A DNA stretch of 33,782 nucleotides from a virus. The stretch spans positions 1 through 33,782 of IMG/VR virus record IMGVR_UViG_3300049847_000468; one strand, written 5' to 3'. Position numbers and translations under genes: made by a program. Under the pieces are notes generated by a model, which did not search any database, was not told the DNA's origin, and saw only the letters and a list, made by a program, of their open reading frames with translations. Below are positions 10,527 to 27,662 of the stretch, piece by piece (position 1 is the stretch's first letter; each line of letters begins with the position of its first letter).

Positions 10527-10763
10527 TCAGCTCGGGCAGGGGTGCTCGCCCTCTATGCGTAGGCTCACGTGGTAGCCGCAGGGGTGCTCGAACCACCAGG
10601 CGAGTCTGGCACGGCGCAGCTCGAACACCGTGCCGTTGTTGAGCGCCAGGCGAATCAGCGCGGAGTCGCTCTCGAGGGTGCTGCAGAGCTCGCGGAACTT
10701 TGAGCCGGTTACGGTGGTCTCGAGGCTCGGGCAGTCGTTGACACCGTAATAGCCGCAATTCAT
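10527..10763 (-). CDS. Small hypothetical protein
   Basis: This 78-residue protein is translationally coupled to the DUF5131 gene by ATGA overlap at 10760-10763. It has Cys at 3, 11 and 27, then 'FEHPCGYHV' and 'HPCPS' near the end, and a central 'ALNNGTVFELRRARLAWWFEHP' type beta pattern. The Cys/His content could bind metal. Being directly coupled, it may work with the DUF5131 protein, but this is inference. Confidence 0.5.
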   Translation of the reverse strand: MNCGYYGVNDCPSLETTVTGSKFRELCSTLESDSALIRLALNNGTVFELRRARLAWWFEHPCGYHVSLRIEGEHPCPS

Positions 10764-11713
10764 GGCCGGCCGCTCCACACCTGGCCGTCGATCAGGCGCC
10801 CAACCAGCTCGGGGTTGTGGGGCATGATGCGGGCGGCGCCGTGATAGCGGCACTCAATCAGCTTGGAACCAGGCACCTCGCGCTCGGTTGGTGACCAGGC
10901 CCCCCACTGTTTGAAAAAAAAAGCCGTATCGGTGGCCTTGCACTCATCGCGCAGGTGGCGGGCGTGGGCTGGGTGCATCGGCCGCGCATCTGGGCCAGAC
11001 TCACCTCCGACAATCACCCAGCGCACGCCGTGGGGCGCACCGTGGCGCGCCGGCGTTTCGTGCGCTGGCGCCAACCACCTCGAAAGGCTCACCGGGCCCA
11101 GCAGCGGCTCGGCCGAAACGAACCGCAGGGCGGCCGGCGCGGCGATCAGATCCGGCAGCCGCTGCTCGGCGCGCGCCTGGTCCTCCACCGAGGTGCCCAG
11201 CCAGACGTTAGCCGGCGGCCAAAGCTTGACGGCCACCTGGTGGTCGGCGCGCATCAGCATGGCACGCTCGCGCGGGCCCTCCAGCAGGCGCGCCGCGGCG
11301 GCCAGGGCGTCGTTGCGGGTGGAACGGCCCAGGATGTCGCGCGCGCGCGCCGGCCGCTTGGTGAGAGCCTGGAAGGTCCAGCGCGGCAGCGCGGCCATAA
11401 TCCCCCACACCGCCAGCGAGCATTCCTCGGGCAGGTTGTCCTGGAACACATCGGAAAGGCTCGCAACGAAACAATGCCTGGGCGCCACGCGCAGCGGCCA
11501 GGCCAGTGCCTTGGGGCGCAGGATGGCCTTGCCGGTCCAGCGCGGCCCGATGTCGCTTTCACGCACCAGGCCCTCGAAGGGCAGGCCCTCGCCCGAGAAC
11601 CGCCAGGCGAACCGCTCGGCGTAGCAGTTTTGGCAGCCTGGCGAAACACGCCGGCAGCCGGCCACCGGATTCCAGGTGCTATCGGTCCATTCAATGCCGG
11701 TGGTTGCTCCCAT
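10760..11713 (-). CDS. DUF5131 / phage Gp37-Gp68 family protein
   Basis: This 317-residue protein begins with the family signature 'IEWTDSTWNPVAGC', followed by C27 and C30 (C-x6-C-x2-C at 20, 27 and 30). Further blocks conserved in this family are 'HCFVASLSDVFQ', 'WLGTSVEDQ', 'RFVSAEPLLGP' and 'WVIVGGESGPDARPM', ending with 'FFFKQWG'. The three-Cys motif recalls radical-SAM iron-sulphur binding, and the family is found in many phages, but its reaction is not established to my knowledge. The ATG at 11713 overlaps the upstream stop by one base; a longer in-frame start would overlap the previous gene. All signature blocks are intact. Confidence 0.9.
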   Translation of the reverse strand: MGATTGIEWTDSTWNPVAGCRRVSPGCQNCYAERFAWRFSGEGLPFEGLVRESDIGPRWTGKAILRPKALAWPLRVAPRHCFVASLSDVFQDNLPEECSLAVWGIMAALPRWTFQALTKRPARARDILGRSTRNDALAAAARLLEGPRERAMLMRADHQVAVKLWPPANVWLGTSVEDQARAEQRLPDLIAAPAALRFVSAEPLLGPVSLSRWLAPAHETPARHGAPHGVRWVIVGGESGPDARPMHPAHARHLRDECKATDTAFFFKQWGAWSPTEREVPGSKLIECRYHGAARIMPHNPELVGRLIDGQVWSGRP

Positions 11714-12246
11714 CAGTCGCCTGGCTCCTGCTCGAGGCCCTTGGTTGGCTTGGCTGCCAGCCGCGCGAACAGCCGGCCCTGGCACCAGGCCACGATACGG
11801 TCGGGGTCCGTAGTCACCAGGCTGGCGGCGCCGGCGGCCAGCGGCAGGTCCTGCACGCCGTGCAGGCCGGCCGGCCGATCCTCGCCGGCGGCGGTAATCA
11901 GCACCGCCAGGCGCAGGCTGGTGCTCGAGCGCAGGGCCCAGAGCGCGCCGAGGGTGGCCCAGTCCGATGGAGCCGCCGGCAGCACCAGCACAACCAGGTG
12001 CACCTGGGTGAGCTGGGCCCTGGTCACCCGGTTTTGCACCGAAAACTCTTCGCCCTCGGAACTCTCGAGCGCGCGCAGCAGCTCAGGCTCGCCAACCCAT
12101 GGAGCGCCGGCCAGCTGGTTGCTGCGCGGCAGGGACCAGAGCTCGCCGTGCCACGCGCGAAAGCCAGCGGCGTGCAGCGAGTCGGCCAACACTCCGAGGC
12201 CCGAACTCCTGGCGCCGGCTCCGAGGATCAAAACCACCGAGCTCAT
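11713..12246 (-). CDS. Rossmann-like protein, possibly nucleoside deoxyribosyltransferase-like
   Basis: This 177-residue protein opens with a beta strand and a glycine loop ('VVLILGAGARSSG', residues 4-16). It later has 'VHLVVLVLPAAPSDWATLGALWAL' (about 82-105), a strand followed by a Ser/Asp and helix as in nucleoside 2-deoxyribosyltransferase or TIR-like folds. The usual catalytic Glu in the 'S-x-H-x-E' type motif is not obvious, so enzymatic activity is doubtful. It is coupled by ATGA overlap upstream and by a one-base overlap to the DUF5131 gene. A nucleotide-linked partner of DUF5131 is a reasonable but untested idea. Confidence 0.4.
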   Translation of the reverse strand: MSSVVLILGAGARSSGLGVLADSLHAAGFRAWHGELWSLPRSNQLAGAPWVGEPELLRALESSEGEEFSVQNRVTRAQLTQVHLVVLVLPAAPSDWATLGALWALRSSTSLRLAVLITAAGEDRPAGLHGVQDLPLAAGAASLVTTDPDRIVAWCQGRLFARLAAKPTKGLEQEPGD

Positions 12247-13855: not shown

Positions 13856-15706
13856 TCAGGCGCGCGCCGGTGTGCGTTTCTTGGATTTGTGCTGCTTGGC
13901 CTTTCCTGATTTCTTGCCCTTCGAGGCCAGCCGCTTGGCGATCTGCTCCACGGAAACACCGTAGGCGGCCGCGGCCATGGCCAGGGCTGGGCTCACGCCA
14001 TAAGACTCCACCGCCAGGTCCGGCAGCAGCTCCAGGCCGGTTTCAACGAACCCAACCGCCTGGCCCTGGGTGCCATGTTTGGCGTCTGTCCTGGTTCCAA
14101 GCACCGCCAGCTCGATGGCGAATCGCACCCAGGTGCAGGAATCGATCTGGCTGCCTGGCCCGCCCTCGAACAGGTATGCCTCGAGGTCCTCCACCGGCGC
14201 GCCATTGATTGCCGAAAGCCGCCGGCGCATCGCGCTCAGGGATCGGTGGCCTGCGCAGCCCAAAAGCCGCCTGGCCATCAGCTCGAGTACGCCATCATGC
14301 GTAGAGCCAGGCCCGCGAACCCTGCTGCACGCCTCGGCCACCACTGCATCGAGCACCGCATCCTCGAGCTGTTCGAGCCTGCGCGCGGCGGCGAGCTCGT
14401 TGGCGCGCCGGGCGTCGTCTCCGTCGCGCTGCGGTTTCTTGTCCGGCTTGACCAGCCCAGAGCGGCGGGCCTCGGCCATCAGCGCGCGCCGCTCCACCAG
14501 GGTGTGCAGGATTCCCAGCTGGTCAGTTGCCACGGCCTTGTCCAGGTCGCCAACCAGGCCGGCGCACGTGGCGCGCCAGGTGCCTGCCGTTCCAGGCAGC
14601 TCGCACGGTGCATCGAGGTCCAGCAGCTCTCGGTTGGCGAGCATCGATCCGTAGGGGTAGAGCTCTCGGGATTGTTTGGGCGTCAGGATTTTGGCGCCGT
14701 CGTGCATCGCGGCCTCGATTCCCAGAGCCCTGGTGGCGTCCACCTTGGTGCGCCAGCAGGCAGAATCCAGGCAGAAGTCCGCGGCGCCGTCGCCAGCGGC
14801 GAAGAGTGAAGTCTGGGCACCGCTGCGCTTTGGGCAGGCCGAGCACGCACCAGCCGCTGCCACCAGATCGGTGGCCTCAAGATCCCACGGGGCCTGGTCC
14901 AACGCCCTGCACGCCATTTCAACCGCCACCGCGGCCGTGTGGGCCCCAACGGCCTCGCGGCCCTGGTCGCGCGGCGGGGCATCGATGTGCCTGGAGCTGC
15001 CGAGGTAAAACCGCAGGCTGGTGTCGGCCTCAGCCGCGGCGTGCTCCTGCTGTTCGCTCGAGGGCAGCCGCGCAAACTGCTCGGCCGCGCCGGCGGTGAT
15101 CCAGCCGCCCTCGAGCATCGCCAGGAGTTTTGGCGAAAGCCCGAGCAGGAGCAGCCGGCGGCGCACGTGGGCGATGGGGCGGCCAACATGCGCGGCGATA
15201 TCCTCGACGCCCAGGCCCGTGCTCTGCAGCACCTGGTAGGCCCTCGCCTCGTCCATGGGCGCCTGGTCCTTGCGGTGCAGGTTTTCGACCAGCGCCAGCT
15301 CCAGGGCGCGCTGGGCGTCCACCTGCGCGCGGTCGTAGACCAGCACCGGCACAACATCGAGGCCCAGGCGGCGGGCAGCTCCGAGTCGGCGGTGGCCGGC
15401 GATCAGCTCCAGGGCGTGCCAGCGCAGGCCGTTGCCATCGTCCACCGGCAGGCCGCGGGCCAGCAGCGGCTCGAGGATGCCGTGCTGGCCTATTGAGGCC
15501 ACCAGGTCCGCAATATCGTCCACCTCGGCACTCGAGCGCGGGTTATTGCAGTTCTGGGTGAGCTCCTGGGTGTGCACGTAGTGCAGGGCCGGCCGTGGCA
15601 ATGCCGGCAGGATTGGATTGGCTTGCACGTGCTCCAGGCTGGGCGGCAGCCCATGCTCGCCCACCGCCGTTACCTCCAACCCCAGCGCGCGCTTTTGCTT
15701 GGCCAT
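13856..15706 (-). CDS. ParB/RepB/Spo0J-family protein, large variant
   Basis: This 616-residue protein has an N-terminal ParB nuclease-like/CTPase fold with 'DLVASIGQHGILEPLLAR' (67-84), GHRR at 104-107 in place of the usual GERR, and ENLHR at 141-145. A helix-turn-helix lies at about 160-190. C288, C291, C312 and C317 then form a probable zinc finger, a long helical region follows, and the tail is Lys-rich (595-616). Canonical ParB proteins are about 300 residues, so this is an extended type as seen on phages and plasmids. The usual role is binding parS-like sites for partition or gene control. No ParA is visible. The upstream intergenic space has three matching half-sites. Confidence 0.8.
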   Translation of the reverse strand: MAKQKRALGLEVTAVGEHGLPPSLEHVQANPILPALPRPALHYVHTQELTQNCNNPRSSAEVDDIADLVASIGQHGILEPLLARGLPVDDGNGLRWHALELIAGHRRLGAARRLGLDVVPVLVYDRAQVDAQRALELALVENLHRKDQAPMDEARAYQVLQSTGLGVEDIAAHVGRPIAHVRRRLLLLGLSPKLLAMLEGGWITAGAAEQFARLPSSEQQEHAAAEADTSLRFYLGSSRHIDAPPRDQGREAVGAHTAAVAVEMACRALDQAPWDLEATDLVAAAGACSACPKRSGAQTSLFAAGDGAADFCLDSACWRTKVDATRALGIEAAMHDGAKILTPKQSRELYPYGSMLANRELLDLDAPCELPGTAGTWRATCAGLVGDLDKAVATDQLGILHTLVERRALMAEARRSGLVKPDKKPQRDGDDARRANELAAARRLEQLEDAVLDAVVAEACSRVRGPGSTHDGVLELMARRLLGCAGHRSLSAMRRRLSAINGAPVEDLEAYLFEGGPGSQIDSCTWVRFAIELAVLGTRTDAKHGTQGQAVGFVETGLELLPDLAVESYGVSPALAMAAAAYGVSVEQIAKRLASKGKKSGKAKQHKSKKRTPARA

Positions 15707-16723: not shown

Positions 16724-17032
16724 TCAGGGGATGTTCTCGGCCACGGTGAAGGCCACGGGGTCTAGCGGGAACCGAAACGCTGCGGTGGCCACCTCGAACT
16801 GGTAGCGCCACTCGCCTGCCTGGTCGATGTCGCCTGGCTGCACCACGTACACCACCAGGCCGTCGAGGCCGGTGGTCCCCAGCTGGGCCGTTTTGTGCAG
16901 CGTGGTGCTGTCTGGCTTTTCCAGCCGGAACTCGAGCAGGGTGGCGCCGGAGATATCGGCCGGCACGCCGTCGAGCAGTAGCACCGCCTCGATGGTGTAG
17001 CCGGAAGATCCAACGCGCAAAAGGTCGCTCAT
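16724..17032 (-). CDS. Phage baseplate/fibre-associated Ig-like small protein
   Basis: This 102-residue beta-rich protein has 'YTIEAVLLLDGVPADISGATLLEFRLEKPD' and ends 'FPLDPVAFTVAENIP'. It resembles the BppU N-terminal or phage Ig-like domains that attach fibres or decorate the baseplate, where the 'dg.p.dlsgat...f.l.kPdg' pattern is typical. The start overlaps the preceding stop (ATGA). It is the last gene of the tail/fibre operon, just before the hairpin at 16666-16702. Confidence 0.6.
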   Translation of the reverse strand: MSDLLRVGSSGYTIEAVLLLDGVPADISGATLLEFRLEKPDSTTLHKTAQLGTTGLDGLVVYVVQPGDIDQAGEWRYQFEVATAAFRFPLDPVAFTVAENIP

Positions 17033-17958
17033 GGGGCTGGGGTGGTCATCTGGCGCCTGGTGGTCTGCCGAGTCGATCCTACCTCGCTGGTCGTGCGGAT
17101 ACTCGGGGTGCGGTTGGAGCTCTGGGCCGTCTGCAATTCCACCGTGGTGCGGCTACTGGTTTGGCGGCCAGAACGCACTAGCGAGACTCGACGCCCGAGC
17201 CAGGGGAAGTAGCCGCCGCCGGCGTGGCCCTCGCTCAGGCCCTCGAGCGCGCCGCTGCCGCTCAGTGCCGCCAGGCATTCCGCCCAGCCCTCAACGGTGC
17301 CCGAGAGGTTGGGCGGTAGGGCACCGATGCCGATAGCCACCGCGCTGCATTCCGCGGCGAACGCCTCGGAGCCAGCCAGCGCGCCCATGGCCGCCGGGGT
17401 GGCAACGGCCTCGGCCGCGCCCTGCGCTGCGGCCTGCAGCGCGCCAGAGGCCGCGGGCACCGCCTGCGCAACCGCCACACCTTGCGCAACCGGCGCCAGT
17501 GCACCGCTCGCGGCCGGCACCGCCAGCTGCTCGGATACACCCTGCGCAATCGGAACCAGCGCCGTGGGGGCTCCGGCGGTGAGCTCGGCCACCGCCTCGG
17601 ATACGCCCTGCGCCGCGGCCACCAGCGCGCCCGTTGCTGCCGGGGTGGCAACGGCCTCGGCCACGCCCTGCGCAGCAGCCTGCAGCGCGCCAGAGGCCGC
17701 GGGCACCGCCTGCGCAACCGCCACACCTTGCGCAACCGGCGCCAGTGCACCGCTCGCGGCCGGCACCGCCAGCTGCTCGGATACACCCTGCGCAATCGGA
17801 ACCGCGGCGCCAGTGCCGGCCGGGGTTGCCGAGCCATCGGCCACACCCTCCACCTCGGCAATCAGCGGCGAGGTAGAAACCTCGAGCAGGTAAACGCCCG
17901 TGCCGTCCTCCAGCAGGTAGCGGTCGGCCGTGGTTTCGAGCTGTAGGGCGTCGGCCAT
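17029..17958 (-). CDS. Repeat-rich fibre/adhesin-like protein
   Basis: This 309-residue protein has a short N-terminal beta part ('RYLLEDGTGVYLLE', about 13-26). About eight Ala/Val/Gly-rich repeats follow (about 45-195), each roughly 20 residues, of the form 'AQGV-xE-x-AVPAASGAL'. The C-terminus is Ser/Thr/Arg-rich. The repeats look like a low-complexity beta or coiled fibre shaft. An 82-codon block is duplicated almost exactly at DNA level (17393-17557 and 17639-17803). The C-terminus lacks the usual carbohydrate-binding look, so this may be a decoration rather than a receptor-binding protein. Confidence 0.5.
   Translation of the reverse strand: MADALQLETTADRYLLEDGTGVYLLEVSTSPLIAEVEGVADGSATPAGTGAAVPIAQGVSEQLAVPAASGALAPVAQGVAVAQAVPAASGALQAAAQGVAEAVATPAATGALVAAAQGVSEAVAELTAGAPTALVPIAQGVSEQLAVPAASGALAPVAQGVAVAQAVPAASGALQAAAQGAAEAVATPAAMGALAGSEAFAAECSAVAIGIGALPPNLSGTVEGWAECLAALSGSGALEGLSEGHAGGGYFPWLGRRVSLVRSGRQTSSRTTVELQTAQSSNRTPSIRTTSEVGSTRQTTRRQMTTPAP
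17393..17803. repeat. Internal 165-bp direct repeat in the repeat-rich protein gene
   Basis: The blocks 17393-17557 and 17639-17803 are identical except for about three substitutions, with an exact 246-base (82-codon) period. The in-frame period shows expansion of the protein repeat by a recent duplication or recombination event. Confidence 0.85.
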
Positions 17959-18800: not shown

Positions 18801-19484
18801 TCAGCCCTCGGTGACCACCAGCTGGCCCGCGGTCACCTTGGGGGTGATGCCGTTGGAAATGGCGAGCTGCTTGGAAAGGGCAATCTTTCCGCCGCCGGCG
18901 GCGGTGATGTCGAGGGTGGAACCGCCCTGGGTGGTCGAGATGGTGATAACGTCGCCGGAAACCGATTTCACCCAGTACACCGTGCCAGCCGTGATTCCGC
19001 TGGGCATGGTCACCAGAGGCAGCGAGTAGAACACCACGCGGTCGTCTACCACGAACGCATTGCCGGGCACCGTGATGTTGTCGGCGGTGGTCGCGGTGAA
19101 CACCTTGGCACCAGAGGCCAGCGGGCCGGAGTGCAGGATTTTGCCGGCGCCGCTCGAGGCCGTGCCGAGGCTCCAGTGCGTGGCGGTCTCGCTGCCGCCC
19201 GTGCACGCCGGAAAGTTGATGTCCGCGGCGTTCACCACCTGCTGGCCGGTCTGTGTGAAGCCGGAGCCGGAGCGCGCAACGGCCACGCGGGCGTAGCCGG
19301 TCCAGGTGCACTCGCTGGTATTTTGCGAGCCAGCGGCGCCGGGGTCCGCGGTGTGCAGCGCCAGGTACACGCTGCCGGCGGTGGCCGAGGGCTGCAGGCC
19401 AGACGCATCGCCAACCAGCGCCAGGGCCGTGTTGGTGTAGAGGTGTGCCAGGCTCTCGCCGGCGTAGGTATTGCCCTTGCCCAT
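18801..19484 (-). CDS. Phage tail fibre/structural protein
   Basis: This 227-residue protein has 'VYLALHTADPGAAGSQNTSE' and 'GYARVAVARSG', followed by 'FPACTGGSETATHWSLGTASSGAGKIL'. I recognise this pattern from an uncharacterised family of phage virion proteins that occurs next to fibre genes. The C-terminal half (about 135-227) repeats beta-rich elements and looks like a second module that sits on the conserved head. It is probably a virion surface decoration or fibre component. Confidence 0.65.
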   Translation of the reverse strand: MGKGNTYAGESLAHLYTNTALALVGDASGLQPSATAGSVYLALHTADPGAAGSQNTSECTWTGYARVAVARSGSGFTQTGQQVVNAADINFPACTGGSETATHWSLGTASSGAGKILHSGPLASGAKVFTATTADNITVPGNAFVVDDRVVFYSLPLVTMPSGITAGTVYWVKSVSGDVITISTTQGGSTLDITAAGGGKIALSKQLAISNGITPKVTAGQLVVTEG

Positions 19485-19506: not shown

Positions 19507-19977
19507 TTAGCTCAGTGCGGTGACCGAGCGGGCGCGCCAAAGGCCCTTGGGGCCGGGCACGATTTTGATGGGGCCGCCGGCAGGGCTGTAGGGGAAACTG
19601 GGGCCGTTGGCCACCGAGTCCAGCCAGATCAGCGGCCGGCGCGCGGCATCGCTGGCGCCGTCGAGGTAGATAATTGCGCCCTTGACCTGCCGGGTGCCGT
19701 TGCTGATGGTCGCGCCGAAATTCACATCGTCACAATCCACGATCAGGTCGCCGGTGGGCAGGTCGTCGGTGACCGTCACGGTGGTGAGGGTCTGGCGGCT
19801 GTAGCCGGCGCCGTTCATTTCGTCCAACGTGGTGAAACTGGACAGGAACGTGGAGCGCAGCTCGAGGTCGGCCGTGGTGTTGCTCATCACCAGCAGGGCC
19901 TTGAGCGTGGCGCTGGTCCAGTTGATGCCCGTGGTGAGCATGAAACTGCGGCCGGGCACGTAGAAAAAATTGGCCAT
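19507..19977 (-). CDS. Phage virion-associated protein
   Basis: This 156-residue protein has 'INWTSATLKALLVMSNTTADLE' and later 'GAIIYLDGASDAARRPLIWLDS', followed by a Pro/Gly-rich 'SFPYSPAGGPIKIV'. The pattern matches small phage structural proteins found beside fibre or head-fibre genes. The end is short and basic. A fibre accessory or capsid/tail decoration is the best guess; no catalytic motif is seen. Confidence 0.55.
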   Translation of the reverse strand: MANFFYVPGRSFMLTTGINWTSATLKALLVMSNTTADLELRSTFLSSFTTLDEMNGAGYSRQTLTTVTVTDDLPTGDLIVDCDDVNFGATISNGTRQVKGAIIYLDGASDAARRPLIWLDSVANGPSFPYSPAGGPIKIVPGPKGLWRARSVTALS

Positions 19978-23767: not shown

Positions 23768-24340
23768 CTAGCCGAATAGCAGCCTGGTGGAGTCGCGCGC
23801 GGCGCCGCTGCCGCTCTCGAGCTCGGTGCCCAGCCAGTATTCGCTCCAGCGCGGCCGTGTGTCTGGGGTGATGGTCAGCTCGATGCGCAGGTGGCCCTGC
23901 TCCACCCAGCTCGCGGCGGCCTTGATGTTGCTGGCGATGCCGCGCGCGCGCATCCATTCCAGGCTTTCGCTGGCGTACGCCTCGGCTTCGCGCAACGTTT
24001 CCTCGAGCATTTTGCTGCGCTCGGTGAGCCAGAGCAGAGAACCCCAGCGATCACCTGGGCGGTCGGCCCAGTAGCCGCGCGGGTCATCCTCGACGGCCAG
24101 GCCGTCCTCGGAGCTCGCGCGCCCATCGGTCCACAGACTGGCCAGCACCGAGGTGGCCAGGCCCTGGTCCATTACCAGGTCGCCGTTGGCAAGCTCCAGG
24201 TCGATGTCGGCACCGCCTGGGCTTGAAAGCCGCAGATCCACGCCCTTGGGGTTTGCGCCAGGCGGCAGGCCGCTGCCCATGCTCACGGCAAACCAGTTGA
24301 GGCTGCCGCTCGCCCCCAGCACGATCACCCAGGCGGCCAT
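23768..24340 (-). CDS. Mu gp46-like baseplate protein
   Basis: This 190-residue protein matches Phage_Gp46: 'DLVMDQGLATSVLASLWTDGRA', then 'DDPRGYWADRPGDRWGSLLWLTERSK' and 'EETLREAEAYASESLEWM'. It is a GpW/gp25-like baseplate component. The ATG at 24340 overlaps the stop of the hydrolase gene (ATGA), so it is translationally coupled to it. An N-terminal extension of about 40-50 residues before the conserved region is present. Confidence 0.9.
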   Translation of the reverse strand: MAAWVIVLGASGSLNWFAVSMGSGLPPGANPKGVDLRLSSPGGADIDLELANGDLVMDQGLATSVLASLWTDGRASSEDGLAVEDDPRGYWADRPGDRWGSLLWLTERSKMLEETLREAEAYASESLEWMRARGIASNIKAAASWVEQGHLRIELTITPDTRPRWSEYWLGTELESGSGAARDSTRLLFG

Positions 24341-25902
24341 CAGTCGAGGTCGAGCCCAACTGTGTCTCGAACCCAGTTGTAAATTTGGGTGGTCAGGCTG
24401 CCGCCCTGCACGTAGTTGCCGGCAGCATTGTGGAAGCACACTCGGCCGGTGTTGGCGTTGTAGGCGCCGTTGCCGGCCGAGAGGTCCAGCGAAAACTGGG
24501 TGGAGCTGATGCGGGTGGCCGAGCGCACGCCGTTGGCGCCGGTGTTGCCGGTGGCCTGGCCTACCTTGACCACATCGCCTGTTCTGATGCCGTGCTCGGC
24601 CGCCGTCGTGCAGACGATGGGGCTGGCGTTGGTGGCCGAGACAATCACCTGCGCCGTGCTGGTTGTGCCGCTGGTGTCGGCATCTTCGCCCCAGTAGCTC
24701 ACCAGCGAGAAACCACCCAGCGCGGCCAGTGCCACCTCGGCCCAGCGCACATCGTAGGAATCATCGGCGGCGTACTTGTTGGGCACCTTGGCCACCAGCG
24801 AATCGCCCACCTGGTAGCCCACGCTGGGGTTGGTGGCGTTGAACATGAAAATGGGCACCGTTCGAGCCACGGCGAGGTCGCGCGCGGTCATCTGCGCCAG
24901 CAGCAGGCCGGGGCTCATCGCCTCGCGGCGCGCGCGCGGCATGTCCTCGTAGCCGTAGCGGTCCTGGATCGTCGGCACCGCGGTGGTGGTGAACGTCTGC
25001 GCCGCATCCCCGTGCTTTTGGAACGTGTTGCCGTTGGCAAAACTGTTGCCGTTGCCCATCAGCGGGTTGAGCACCATGGTGCAGGCCGCGCCAGAGCCCG
25101 AAATGCTGTAGATAATCCCGGAAACGTTGGGATTGCTCACGCCGTCCACCTGGTCGCCAACCACCAGCGTGCCCACCAGGGTGCCGAACAGCGAAACGCG
25201 CGGCCGGTAGCGGCTGGGGGTGGCCGCGGCGGCGATGAAAGGGGCGTAGGCCGCCGGGCTGCCCATGATCCTCGAGGGGTCTGCCTGGCAGGGGAGGAAC
25301 GGCGGGCCGCCCAGGATTATGCAGCGCGGGCGGTGGTCCAGCACCAGCACGTTGTCGCCCATGGCCGCCTGCCGGCCGCCAACGCGCGCGAACATCCCCC
25401 AGGATTCCGGCAGCCATTGCGAGGCCGCCAGGTTGCCGGCGCCGGCCGAAGAGCCGTAGGCGAAAACCTGGTTGGAATCGCCCAGGCCGTCGAGCCATCC
25501 GCCAGGCAGGCACTCGGTTTTGAGGTACTGAATGGCCTGGCCAACGCAAACCGAAATTTCCGGGAACAGCGCCGGGTTGGGCCCGTTGGAGCCAAAGGTT
25601 TCGAGGCCGCCGCCCAGCGGGTACTCGAGCAGCACCACGATGGCGCCGCCGTTGGCGAATGCGTTGGGCAGGTCGAGCCTGCTAATCATCGCCAGGGTGG
25701 GGTAACGCTCGTTCGATTCGTCGGCGCCAGGTTGCGCCCAGCCGCCGCCATGGATGTCCACGTAGATCGGCCGCGGGCTGCCTGGGTAGCCGCCAAAACC
25801 GTTGCTGGGGGCAAAAGCGTAGCCGTAGGCTTTTGAGTGTCCGGTGTTGTACTGGAACCGCCGGAAGGAAACGGCCCTGGAGAAAATCGGGGGTGTGGGC
25901 AC
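24340..25902 (-). CDS. Tail-associated alpha/beta-hydrolase (esterase-like) with inserted fibre domains
   Basis: This 520-residue protein has HGGGW at 51-55 (oxyanion hole), GSSAG at 150-154 (nucleophile Ser152), and a final 'CFHNAAGNY' with His491. A C-terminal helix then closes an esterase-lipase fold like those of acetyl-xylan or BD-FAE-type enzymes. Two extra segments interrupt the fold. One is at about 241-300. The other is a phage fibre-type domain (about 410-488, 'NASPIVCTTAAEHGIRTGDVVKV...SSTQFSLDLSAGNGAY') just before His491. The catalytic acid is not obvious. The likely role is removing acyl groups from host surface glycans during adsorption. It starts with a GTG at 25902 directly after the upstream stop. 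Confidence 0.7.
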   Translation of the reverse strand: MPTPPIFSRAVSFRRFQYNTGHSKAYGYAFAPSNGFGGYPGSPRPIYVDIHGGGWAQPGADESNERYPTLAMISRLDLPNAFANGGAIVVLLEYPLGGGLETFGSNGPNPALFPEISVCVGQAIQYLKTECLPGGWLDGLGDSNQVFAYGSSAGAGNLAASQWLPESWGMFARVGGRQAAMGDNVLVLDHRPRCIILGGPPFLPCQADPSRIMGSPAAYAPFIAAAATPSRYRPRVSLFGTLVGTLVVGDQVDGVSNPNVSGIIYSISGSGAACTMVLNPLMGNGNSFANGNTFQKHGDAAQTFTTTAVPTIQDRYGYEDMPRARREAMSPGLLLAQMTARDLAVARTVPIFMFNATNPSVGYQVGDSLVAKVPNKYAADDSYDVRWAEVALAALGGFSLVSYWGEDADTSGTTSTAQVIVSATNASPIVCTTAAEHGIRTGDVVKVGQATGNTGANGVRSATRISSTQFSLDLSAGNGAYNANTGRVCFHNAAGNYVQGGSLTTQIYNWVRDTVGLDLD

Positions 25903-27207
25903 TTACTTAGCTCCGCGGGTCAGTTTGGCTATGAACGCGTGCACGTTGCAGTAGGCCACGCCCGAGGTCGCCACGCCTGGGCCTATGGCCATCCACACTC
26001 CCACGTTGCGCTTGCTGCGCTTGTTGGTGAGGTCGTCGCCGTCTTCGAGGTCCCAGCCGGTGTGGGCGGCGTCCACGATGTTGTCCGATCCACGCTGGCG
26101 GCCAACCACGTACCCAGATGCCGGCGAACCCCAGCCGCCGCCAGAGTAGGCCGCGGTTGAGAGCTCCAGCCGCAGCATTCCAATTAGGCCCTGGCTTCGG
26201 TCCAGCTTGCGGGCCGCCTGCAGCCTGATGGTGGCCATGAACGGCGTTTCGCTCGAGATTGTCGGCATTGCCGGCGAAACGAACATCATGCGCGCGCGCT
26301 TGTTGGCGGCATCGAGTCCGGTGGTGATCCAGATGGGCTCATCGATGTTGAGCGTGAAATAGAGCAGGGGGTTGTCGGGGGTGGTGTTGACCATCACGCC
26401 CGAGCACGTGATCTCAAGCACCGCGCCGTCCGCAAACTCACCGCGCGGCAGCTCGAAGGATTGGTTGTATCCCCAGGGGTCGAGCGGGAACCGGTACAGG
26501 CTGGTGCCTACCTGCTCTTCCTGCGCCACGCCCAGGCAGTTGTAGTAGCAGGTCGGCCCAGTCGAGAACCGCGGCGCTTTCTTGCCGGTGGTGTCGCCGT
26601 AGCCGGTGGTGGAGCCGAGAAAGGTCCCAACGTCTACGCCGGTCAAGGTGCCAATGGGTCCGGTGAGCACCTCGGCGCCGGCGCCGGCGGCCGTGCCAGA
26701 AAATTGCGAGAGCACCACGGTGCCGCCTGGGCCCACGTGGTTGATGGAGACCAGGCGAGACACCCATGCGCCGGTCGAACCGGTAACTAGGTCGTTCGCC
26801 ACGGGCCTGGTGCCGGTGCTGCCCGAGTAGCTGGCGTTCACGCGGGTGCGGTAGCGCGGCGAGAGCACCTCGGGGTTGGTCTCCACGCCGGCGAGCTGGG
26901 TGCCGCAGGTCCACAGACCAGACGCCTGGGCGAGCACCACGGTGCCGCCGCGGTGGCGGTCGTAGAGGTTGAGCGGGCCGCGCGGACTGGTCGAGAGCAG
27001 GCGCGGCTCGGTGGTGCGCTGCACGGTGCCGTCGATCAGCTCCGAACCCACCCTGGGCACACCGGCCACCGAGTCGAGCAGCGGCACGCCGTCAAGGTCC
27101 ACGATGCCGCTGGGGACCATCAGCGCATCGCCCACCGGCAGCTCGTCCATTGAGGCCAGGTTGGTGCCGTCGTCTGCGCCGAGTGCTACGGGGCGTCTGT
27201 GTGCCAT
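25903..27207 (-). CDS. Tail fibre-like structural protein
   Basis: This 434-residue protein begins with 'PVALGADDGTNLASMDELPVGDAL', a phage fibre-like N-terminal segment. It contains 'RRGGTVVLAQASGLWTCGTQ'-type repeated strands, then a large C-terminal domain (about 235-434) with 'PLLYFTLNIDEPIWITTG'. It lacks an enzyme motif. Position just upstream of the esterase-like gene suggests it carries or holds that enzyme at the baseplate. It may be a host-specific receptor-binding protein. Confidence 0.5.
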   Translation of the reverse strand: MAHRRPVALGADDGTNLASMDELPVGDALMVPSGIVDLDGVPLLDSVAGVPRVGSELIDGTVQRTTEPRLLSTSPRGPLNLYDRHRGGTVVLAQASGLWTCGTQLAGVETNPEVLSPRYRTRVNASYSGSTGTRPVANDLVTGSTGAWVSRLVSINHVGPGGTVVLSQFSGTAAGAGAEVLTGPIGTLTGVDVGTFLGSTTGYGDTTGKKAPRFSTGPTCYYNCLGVAQEEQVGTSLYRFPLDPWGYNQSFELPRGEFADGAVLEITCSGVMVNTTPDNPLLYFTLNIDEPIWITTGLDAANKRARMMFVSPAMPTISSETPFMATIRLQAARKLDRSQGLIGMLRLELSTAAYSGGGWGSPASGYVVGRQRGSDNIVDAAHTGWDLEDGDDLTNKRSKRNVGVWMAIGPGVATSGVAYCNVHAFIAKLTRGAK

Positions 27208-27211
27208 GGGG

Positions 27212-27346
27212 TTAGCTGGTGTGGATTGTCACGTACACCATGGTGCCGTTGGCTCGGCGCACGGGCAGACCGAGCTCGGCGCGCAAGTAGCGCAGCAGGG
27301 TGCCGTCCGCGCGGATTACCTGGTGGGCTTGGACAATTGCGAACAC
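27212..27346 (-). CDS. Very small hypothetical protein
   Basis: This 44-residue gene starts with a GTG at 27346, preceded by a strong GGTGAGG Shine-Dalgarno at eight bases. The peptide 'FAIVQAHQVIRADGTLLRYLRAELGLPVRR' is beta-hairpin-like and basic. It fills the 180-base space between the PAAR and fibre-like genes. An ATG in the Shine-Dalgarno area is out of frame and stops after 12 codons. Function is unknown. Confidence 0.4.
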   Translation of the reverse strand: MFAIVQAHQVIRADGTLLRYLRAELGLPVRRANGTMVYVTIHTS

Positions 27347-27395
27347 GCGGCCATCCTCACCGAACCGTGCTGGAGAATCTAGCGAGCTGCGCCGG

Positions 27396-27662
27396 TCAGC
27401 TCTGCACGCTTGCTGCCGGGCTTCCGGTGGCCGTGTGGCCGCAGCTGGCCGCCATTCCGGCCGCCACCACTGCCTGGCCATCGATGCGCACGAAAGTCGA
27501 ACCCGTGGGCAGCGTGGCAGCCAGGTGGGCTCCAAGGCCGTGGCCCTGGACTGTGGCGCCAACCACCGCGGCCAGCGCGCCATCGAGTCGCACGAACGCC
27601 TGGGCGGTTGCCTGCACCAGGCCGCCGGCGCTGTCGATGCCCACTCGAGTTATGCCGGGCAT
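27396..27662 (-). CDS. PAAR-like spike tip protein
   Basis: This 88-residue protein follows the PAAR pattern: 'MPGITRVGID' at the start, 'VQGHG' with His41 and His46, then 'STFVRIDGQAVVAAG' and a final 'CGHTATGSP' (C74, H76). His and Cys at these positions would bind one metal ion and build the sharp cone that tips the membrane-piercing spike. Many Mu-like phages use the C-terminal tip of gp45 instead, so a separate PAAR here is notable. It begins two bases after the gp45 stop. Confidence 0.8.
   Translation of the reverse strand: MPGITRVGIDSAGGLVQATAQAFVRLDGALAAVVGATVQGHGLGAHLAATLPTGSTFVRIDGQAVVAAGMAASCGHTATGSPAASVQS

Follow-up and report, generated by a model that had tools for sequence, protein, structure and literature searches.

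Virion depolymerases are usually sought among beta-helix or beta-propeller tailspikes, and gp63.1 of coliphage G7C is a tailspike of the SGNH type. The G7C protein is an O-antigen deacetylase, that is, an esterase tailspike (PMC10743462). Virion lipases in Cellulophaga and Pseudomonas phages are known from prediction only, according to a review (PMC5380687). A structure-based survey of depolymerases in cultured phages screened for the alpha/beta-hydrolase fold and included a few alpha/beta-hydrolase proteins in its benchmark set; its Fig. 2 shows only four other folds (PMC11326577). Among enzymes in general, the closest described groups to the protein reported here are the BD-FAE, Abhydrolase_3 and carboxylesterase families (PF20434, PF07859, PF00135), which have HGGGW, GxSAG and the order of strands and helices in common with it, and its best structural matches come from the group of Thermogutta Est2, 9x6a and 4zrs. 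The closest described genomic setting is the Mu- or SfV-type baseplate operon, with the order gp43-gp44-gp45-PAAR-gp46-gp47-gp48.

The window analysed here is a whole 33.8 kb IMG/VR virus record (33,782 nucleotides) from an uncultured Mu-like phage. It has this gene order but carries ~3 kb more than the Mu- and SfV-type operons, namely ORF434 and an esterase-like gene, between the PAAR gene and gp46 (Table 1). The neighbouring genes match the gp44, gp45, gp46, gp47 (baseplate J), gp48, tape measure and tail fibre families, which bears out the baseplate-operon position given in a preliminary description of the sequence. The 520-aa product of the esterase-like gene is predicted to have an alpha/beta-hydrolase fold. 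We favour the reading, which we judge to have an even chance of being correct, that it is a virion-associated serine esterase or deacylase borne on a cassette together with the fibre-like ORF434. A GGAG lies just 5' of its GTG start codon, which abuts the ORF434 stop codon without a gap, and its 3' end forms a TGATG overlap with the start of gp46. GC content by codon position (0.61/0.53/0.85) is similar to that of the neighbours, as fits a real gene.

Table 1. Positions in the window of the esterase-like gene, its motifs and inserted domains, and the adjacent genes.
Feature	Coordinates	Strand	Details
Alpha/beta-hydrolase gene P0001 (predicted)	24340..25902	-	520 aa, GTG start
HGGGW oxyanion-hole motif	25738..25752	-	residues 51-55
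GSSAG nucleophile elbow, Ser152	25441..25455	-	residues 150-154; model strand 141-151, helix 153-161
Insert 1, beta-rich	24964..25206	-	residues ~233-313
Asn358	24829..24831	-	catalytic Asp here in phage BD-FAE relatives (alignment-dependent)
Insert 2, E1-FCCH-like phage structural domain	24442..24678	-	residues ~409-487
His491, candidate catalytic His	24430..24432	-	between last core strand and last helix
gp46-like baseplate wedge gene	23768..24341	-	overlaps esterase stop
ORF434, fibre-like partner gene	25903..27207	-	relatives directly upstream of esterase relatives in L172 and L154
PAAR-like spike-tip gene	27396..27662	-	88 aa

The nearest relative of the window, L002 (71% in gp47), does not contain the ORF434-esterase cassette: its PAAR gene is followed directly by gp46, and the span from gp45 to gp46, PAAR gene included, is ~0.3 kb. 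Among 80 loci found by means of gp47, the largest measurable gp45-gp46 interval was 830 bases, and none of the loci with a measurable interval has room for ORF434 and the esterase gene. These comparisons identify ORF434, the esterase gene and a short stretch after the PAAR gene as the addition at the PAAR-gp46 junction. The two genes recur together in two other uncultured phages, L172 and L154, with a tail-sheath gene beginning downstream of them in L154. Judged from these loci, the esterase gene and ORF434 are a travelling two-gene cassette that was inserted between the PAAR tip and gp46. The relatives of ORF434 are 43% identical over 378 residues in L172 and 33% over 211 in L154. ORF434 itself matches no family, its L172 relative weakly matches phrog_1084, and in L240 the comparable ORF upstream of the hydrolase has a weak match to a tail fibre family; we infer that ORF434 is fibre-like. 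Positions 27212-27395, which separate the PAAR gene from ORF434 and are likewise extra with respect to L002, contain a short unassigned frame ending in ...MVYVTIHTS.

Direct homology searches with the 520-aa protein returned nothing from cultured phages, viral contigs, genome contigs, plasmids or the PDB. Its family was retrieved from uncultured virus contigs by a DNA pattern combining HGGGW and GxSAG at limited spacing. The pattern DxHGGGW alone gave 59 viral stretches with one clear hydrolase ORF (L125) and is therefore a weak motif, and genome matches of an HGGGW...EYPxG pattern proved not to be relatives. Over its length, the window protein is 45% identical to the L172 protein and 32% to that of L154. 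When profiles were compared, a second clade (L191/L240, L156 and L188) matched the N-terminal half (98% probability, E=1.4e-14). The window protein and its counterparts in L172, L154 and L191 had no matches among 50,697 cultured-phage records, and a core profile had none at 1e-8 in 398 Pseudomonadota genomes, a set without a positive control.

The proposed fold is borne out by profile matches to carboxylesterases and by the esterase matches of a structural model. A profile of the three close members (window protein, L172 and L154) matched carboxylesterases in the PDB with a best E=0.007, and a six-member profile matched a carboxylesterase at E=1.2e-4 and the feruloyl esterase 4zrs at 0.0015. 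An AlphaFold2 model of residues 1-520, built from 13 sequences, has a recognizable hydrolase core at low confidence (pLDDT 44, pTM 0.54; pLDDT exceeds 70 at 77 residues, chiefly within the N-terminal half). It matches PDB structures (Foldseek E=3e-6; VIA Z 16.1, rmsd 3.9, 223 residues aligned), and nearly all of the top 50 are esterases and related hydrolases. The alignment spans residues 7-520 with ~225 residues matched, which implies that both ends of the protein would form one domain around the insertions. Strands (14-17, 26-30, 44-50, 88-92, 141-151, 194-198 and 351-354) and helices (77-84, 114-131, 153-161, 381-396 and 503-515) follow the order of the alpha/beta-hydrolase fold; the stretches that contain the two inserts are of low confidence. 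In this low-confidence model the GxSxG nucleophile elbow comes after strand 5 of an alternating strand-helix core, and the oxyanion motif HGGGW follows strand 3 (44-50). Because the alignment behind the model contained clear BD-FAE proteins and may favour a hydrolase fold, the profile of the three close members gives the more independent support. When an alignment included FCCH fragments or truncated rows, the strand-7 region was misplaced, and alignment A6 was chosen for the model for this reason. In the BFVD library of viral structures only weak matches were obtained, the best being a Tupanvirus alpha/beta hydrolase (E=0.0022).

The protein differs from the described esterase groups in several respects. 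It falls below the Pfam cut-off for them (E=0.12), carries two nested phage domains, shows no clear Asp where the acid usually lies and is encoded in a phage baseplate operon. No Pfam family reached its cut-off over the whole protein; BD-FAE (PF20434) scored 12.3 bits against the N-terminal core, under its cut-off of 26.8, so that membership of BD-FAE or Abhydrolase_3 (PF07859) at the curated threshold is not supported. The phage relatives L143, L145, L165, L177 and L178 exceed the curated cut-off for BD-FAE or Abhydrolase_3. An SGNH/GDSL tailspike deacetylase was ruled out by the lack of any such Pfam match; the string GDSL at residues 366-369 lies mid-protein and is not conserved in L154.

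Both insertions noticed in the preliminary description are real, and comparison with relatives has shifted their limits, from ~241-300 in the case of insert 1 and from ~410-488 in the case of the fibre-type domain ahead of His491, to those in Table 1. L172 lacks insert 1 and L154 has it. Insert 2, with the last core strand on one side and His491 on the other, is kept in both L172 and L154 and also occurs in phage structural proteins. It matches the tail-protein family phrog_584 (E=2.9e-4) and, below the curated cut-off of 29.5, E1_FCCH (PF16190; E=0.018, 15.5 bits). Relatives of this domain were located in 26 phage loci, where they are frequently part of virion proteins; some large proteins with matches to tail families carry it in tandem. 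In the second clade, a different insert is found elsewhere in the fold, after strand 7, and the BD-FAE hydrolase of L143 contains a stretch resembling part of the L156 fibre-like ORF (E=9e-5). Phage structural domains thus seem to have been inserted into the hydrolase fold more than once. An FCCH-like domain is also nested in proteins of ~200-280 aa in L219 (2934-3539), L213, L218 and L220, and outside this domain the L219 protein belongs to phrog_644, the family of window 19507-19977.

The preliminary description had placed HGGGW, GSSAG and His491 exactly where we find them, and had taken the last of these as the catalytic His. Support for a working triad of this kind was not obtained. HGGGW and GxSAG (Ser152) are invariant in 13/13 aligned phage hydrolases, most of them fetched by those very motifs, so that members without the motifs would have been missed. 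His491, one of six His in the protein, sits where the catalytic His of the fold belongs, and L172 has Asn there. Asn358 probably occupies the site after beta7 where the acid is normally found; it aligns with the D of NDTLV in one alignment, other alignments placing the strand-7 site otherwise; the sequence N358-P-S-V is invariant in the three close members. Given an apparent Asn at the acid site and the Asn in L172, a standard triad is not established, and in the family of the window protein, L172 and L154 either another acid would be used or catalysis would be weakened.

The second of these options leads to the main rival of our reading, which is possible but doubtful: a degenerate hydrolase fold, its catalytic activity lost or being lost, that would serve in the virion as an adhesin or scaffold for the inserted domains. 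The Asn at the apparent acid position and the loss of His491 in the nearest relative, L172, point this way, as do the second clade (L191, L156 and L188), where by eye no Asp occupies the acid site, and the repeated acquisition of structural domains at different loops. Against it, both clades retain HGGGW and GxSAG although they are only ~21-24% identical to each other, and Asp208, after strand 6, is invariant in six members. The catalytic acid of the alpha/beta-hydrolase fold can, moreover, shift to another loop. A broader proposal, somewhat less probable still, is that fibre-associated hydrolases would form a family in uncultured phages for which the esterase fold serves as a chassis, with repeated insertions of phage structural domains at different loops; some members, such as L172, would have lost the triad and become adhesins.

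Under the favoured reading of a virion esterase, Ser152, the HGGGW oxyanion loop and His491 would strip acyl groups off the host surface polysaccharide at adsorption. The FCCH-like and small beta domains would be phage structural modules that interrupt loops of the hydrolase, and these nested domains may hold it in a fibre or the baseplate, or contact glycans. Activity, substrate and the role of the inserts are what we infer here. A location in the virion is supported indirectly, by the fibre-like partner, the match of insert 2 to a tail family and the tail-fused phage relatives. Links of phage BD-FAE hydrolases to tails take two forms, the hydrolase being the N-terminal part of a minor tail protein in L165 and standing beside tail-fibre genes in L145 and L178.

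It is also conceivable, though rather improbable, that the gene is a moron, encoding a non-virion cargo enzyme that acts inside infected cells or lysogens, for instance by altering acylation of the host surface, and that its place in the baseplate operon is incidental. The gene is missing from the closest relative and from all gp47 relatives with a measurable gp45-gp46 interval, and its codon usage is slightly off that of core genes (cosine 0.90, versus 0.96 for gp48), both of which would suit such cargo. The gapless fit between ORF434 and gp46 argues against it, and the fibre-like partner and the tail-protein domain nested in the enzyme suggest a place in the particle. That the protein is a structural baseplate or fibre component with chance motifs is very improbable and was rejected, since, for all that Pfam assigned no family and a single-sequence prediction was useless (pLDDT 29), profile and fold matches lead to esterases and only 3 of 200,000 shuffles of the protein gave HGGGW and GxSxG with a hydrolase-like spacing.

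Like G7C gp63.1, the window protein is proposed to deacylate surface polysaccharide from the virion during adsorption; it differs from it in its predicted alpha/beta-hydrolase fold, its nested domains and the fibre-like gene that accompanies it. The Cellulophaga and Pseudomonas lipases, likewise predicted virion ester hydrolases, are set beside it by description only. The proposed function is thus of a known kind, virion deacetylases being known and virion lipases predicted, and the protein family, the nested architecture and the cassette appear to be new. If the esterase reading is correct, the search for depolymerases would be widened by a hydrolase family in a movable cassette with a fibre-like partner, and soluble enzymes could be seen to be attached to the particle by nested structural domains, without end-to-end fusion.

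Several related arrangements were seen in other phages. In L165 (4480-11904) a 2474-aa protein has a BD-FAE hydrolase at its N-terminus and the body of a minor tail protein, and L202 has a similar ORF of ~2240 aa; both are direct hydrolase-tail fusions. BD-FAE hydrolases of ~700 aa are encoded in L145 (5788-7830), L177 (1474-3669) and L178 (7470-9650), with collagen-like tail-fibre genes directly upstream in L145 and L178; the L178 hydrolase domain had no match in cultured phages. In L240 (2825-6413) and L156 (1683-5139) a large ORF that has fibre-like features precedes the second-clade hydrolase, which lies near apparent capsid genes and is followed by a small membrane-type protein. These upstream ORFs have one short motif in common with ORF434 (hhalign probability 9.5%). 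Window 18801-19484 (Gp80 fibre) has a relative nearby in L156. Elsewhere in the window, 17029-17958 encodes an Ala/Gly-rich repeat protein whose L002 counterpart has different repeats (TTGDTRVAA), and the left half contains a DUF5131 protein and a ParB-like protein, at 10760-11785 and 13856-15706.
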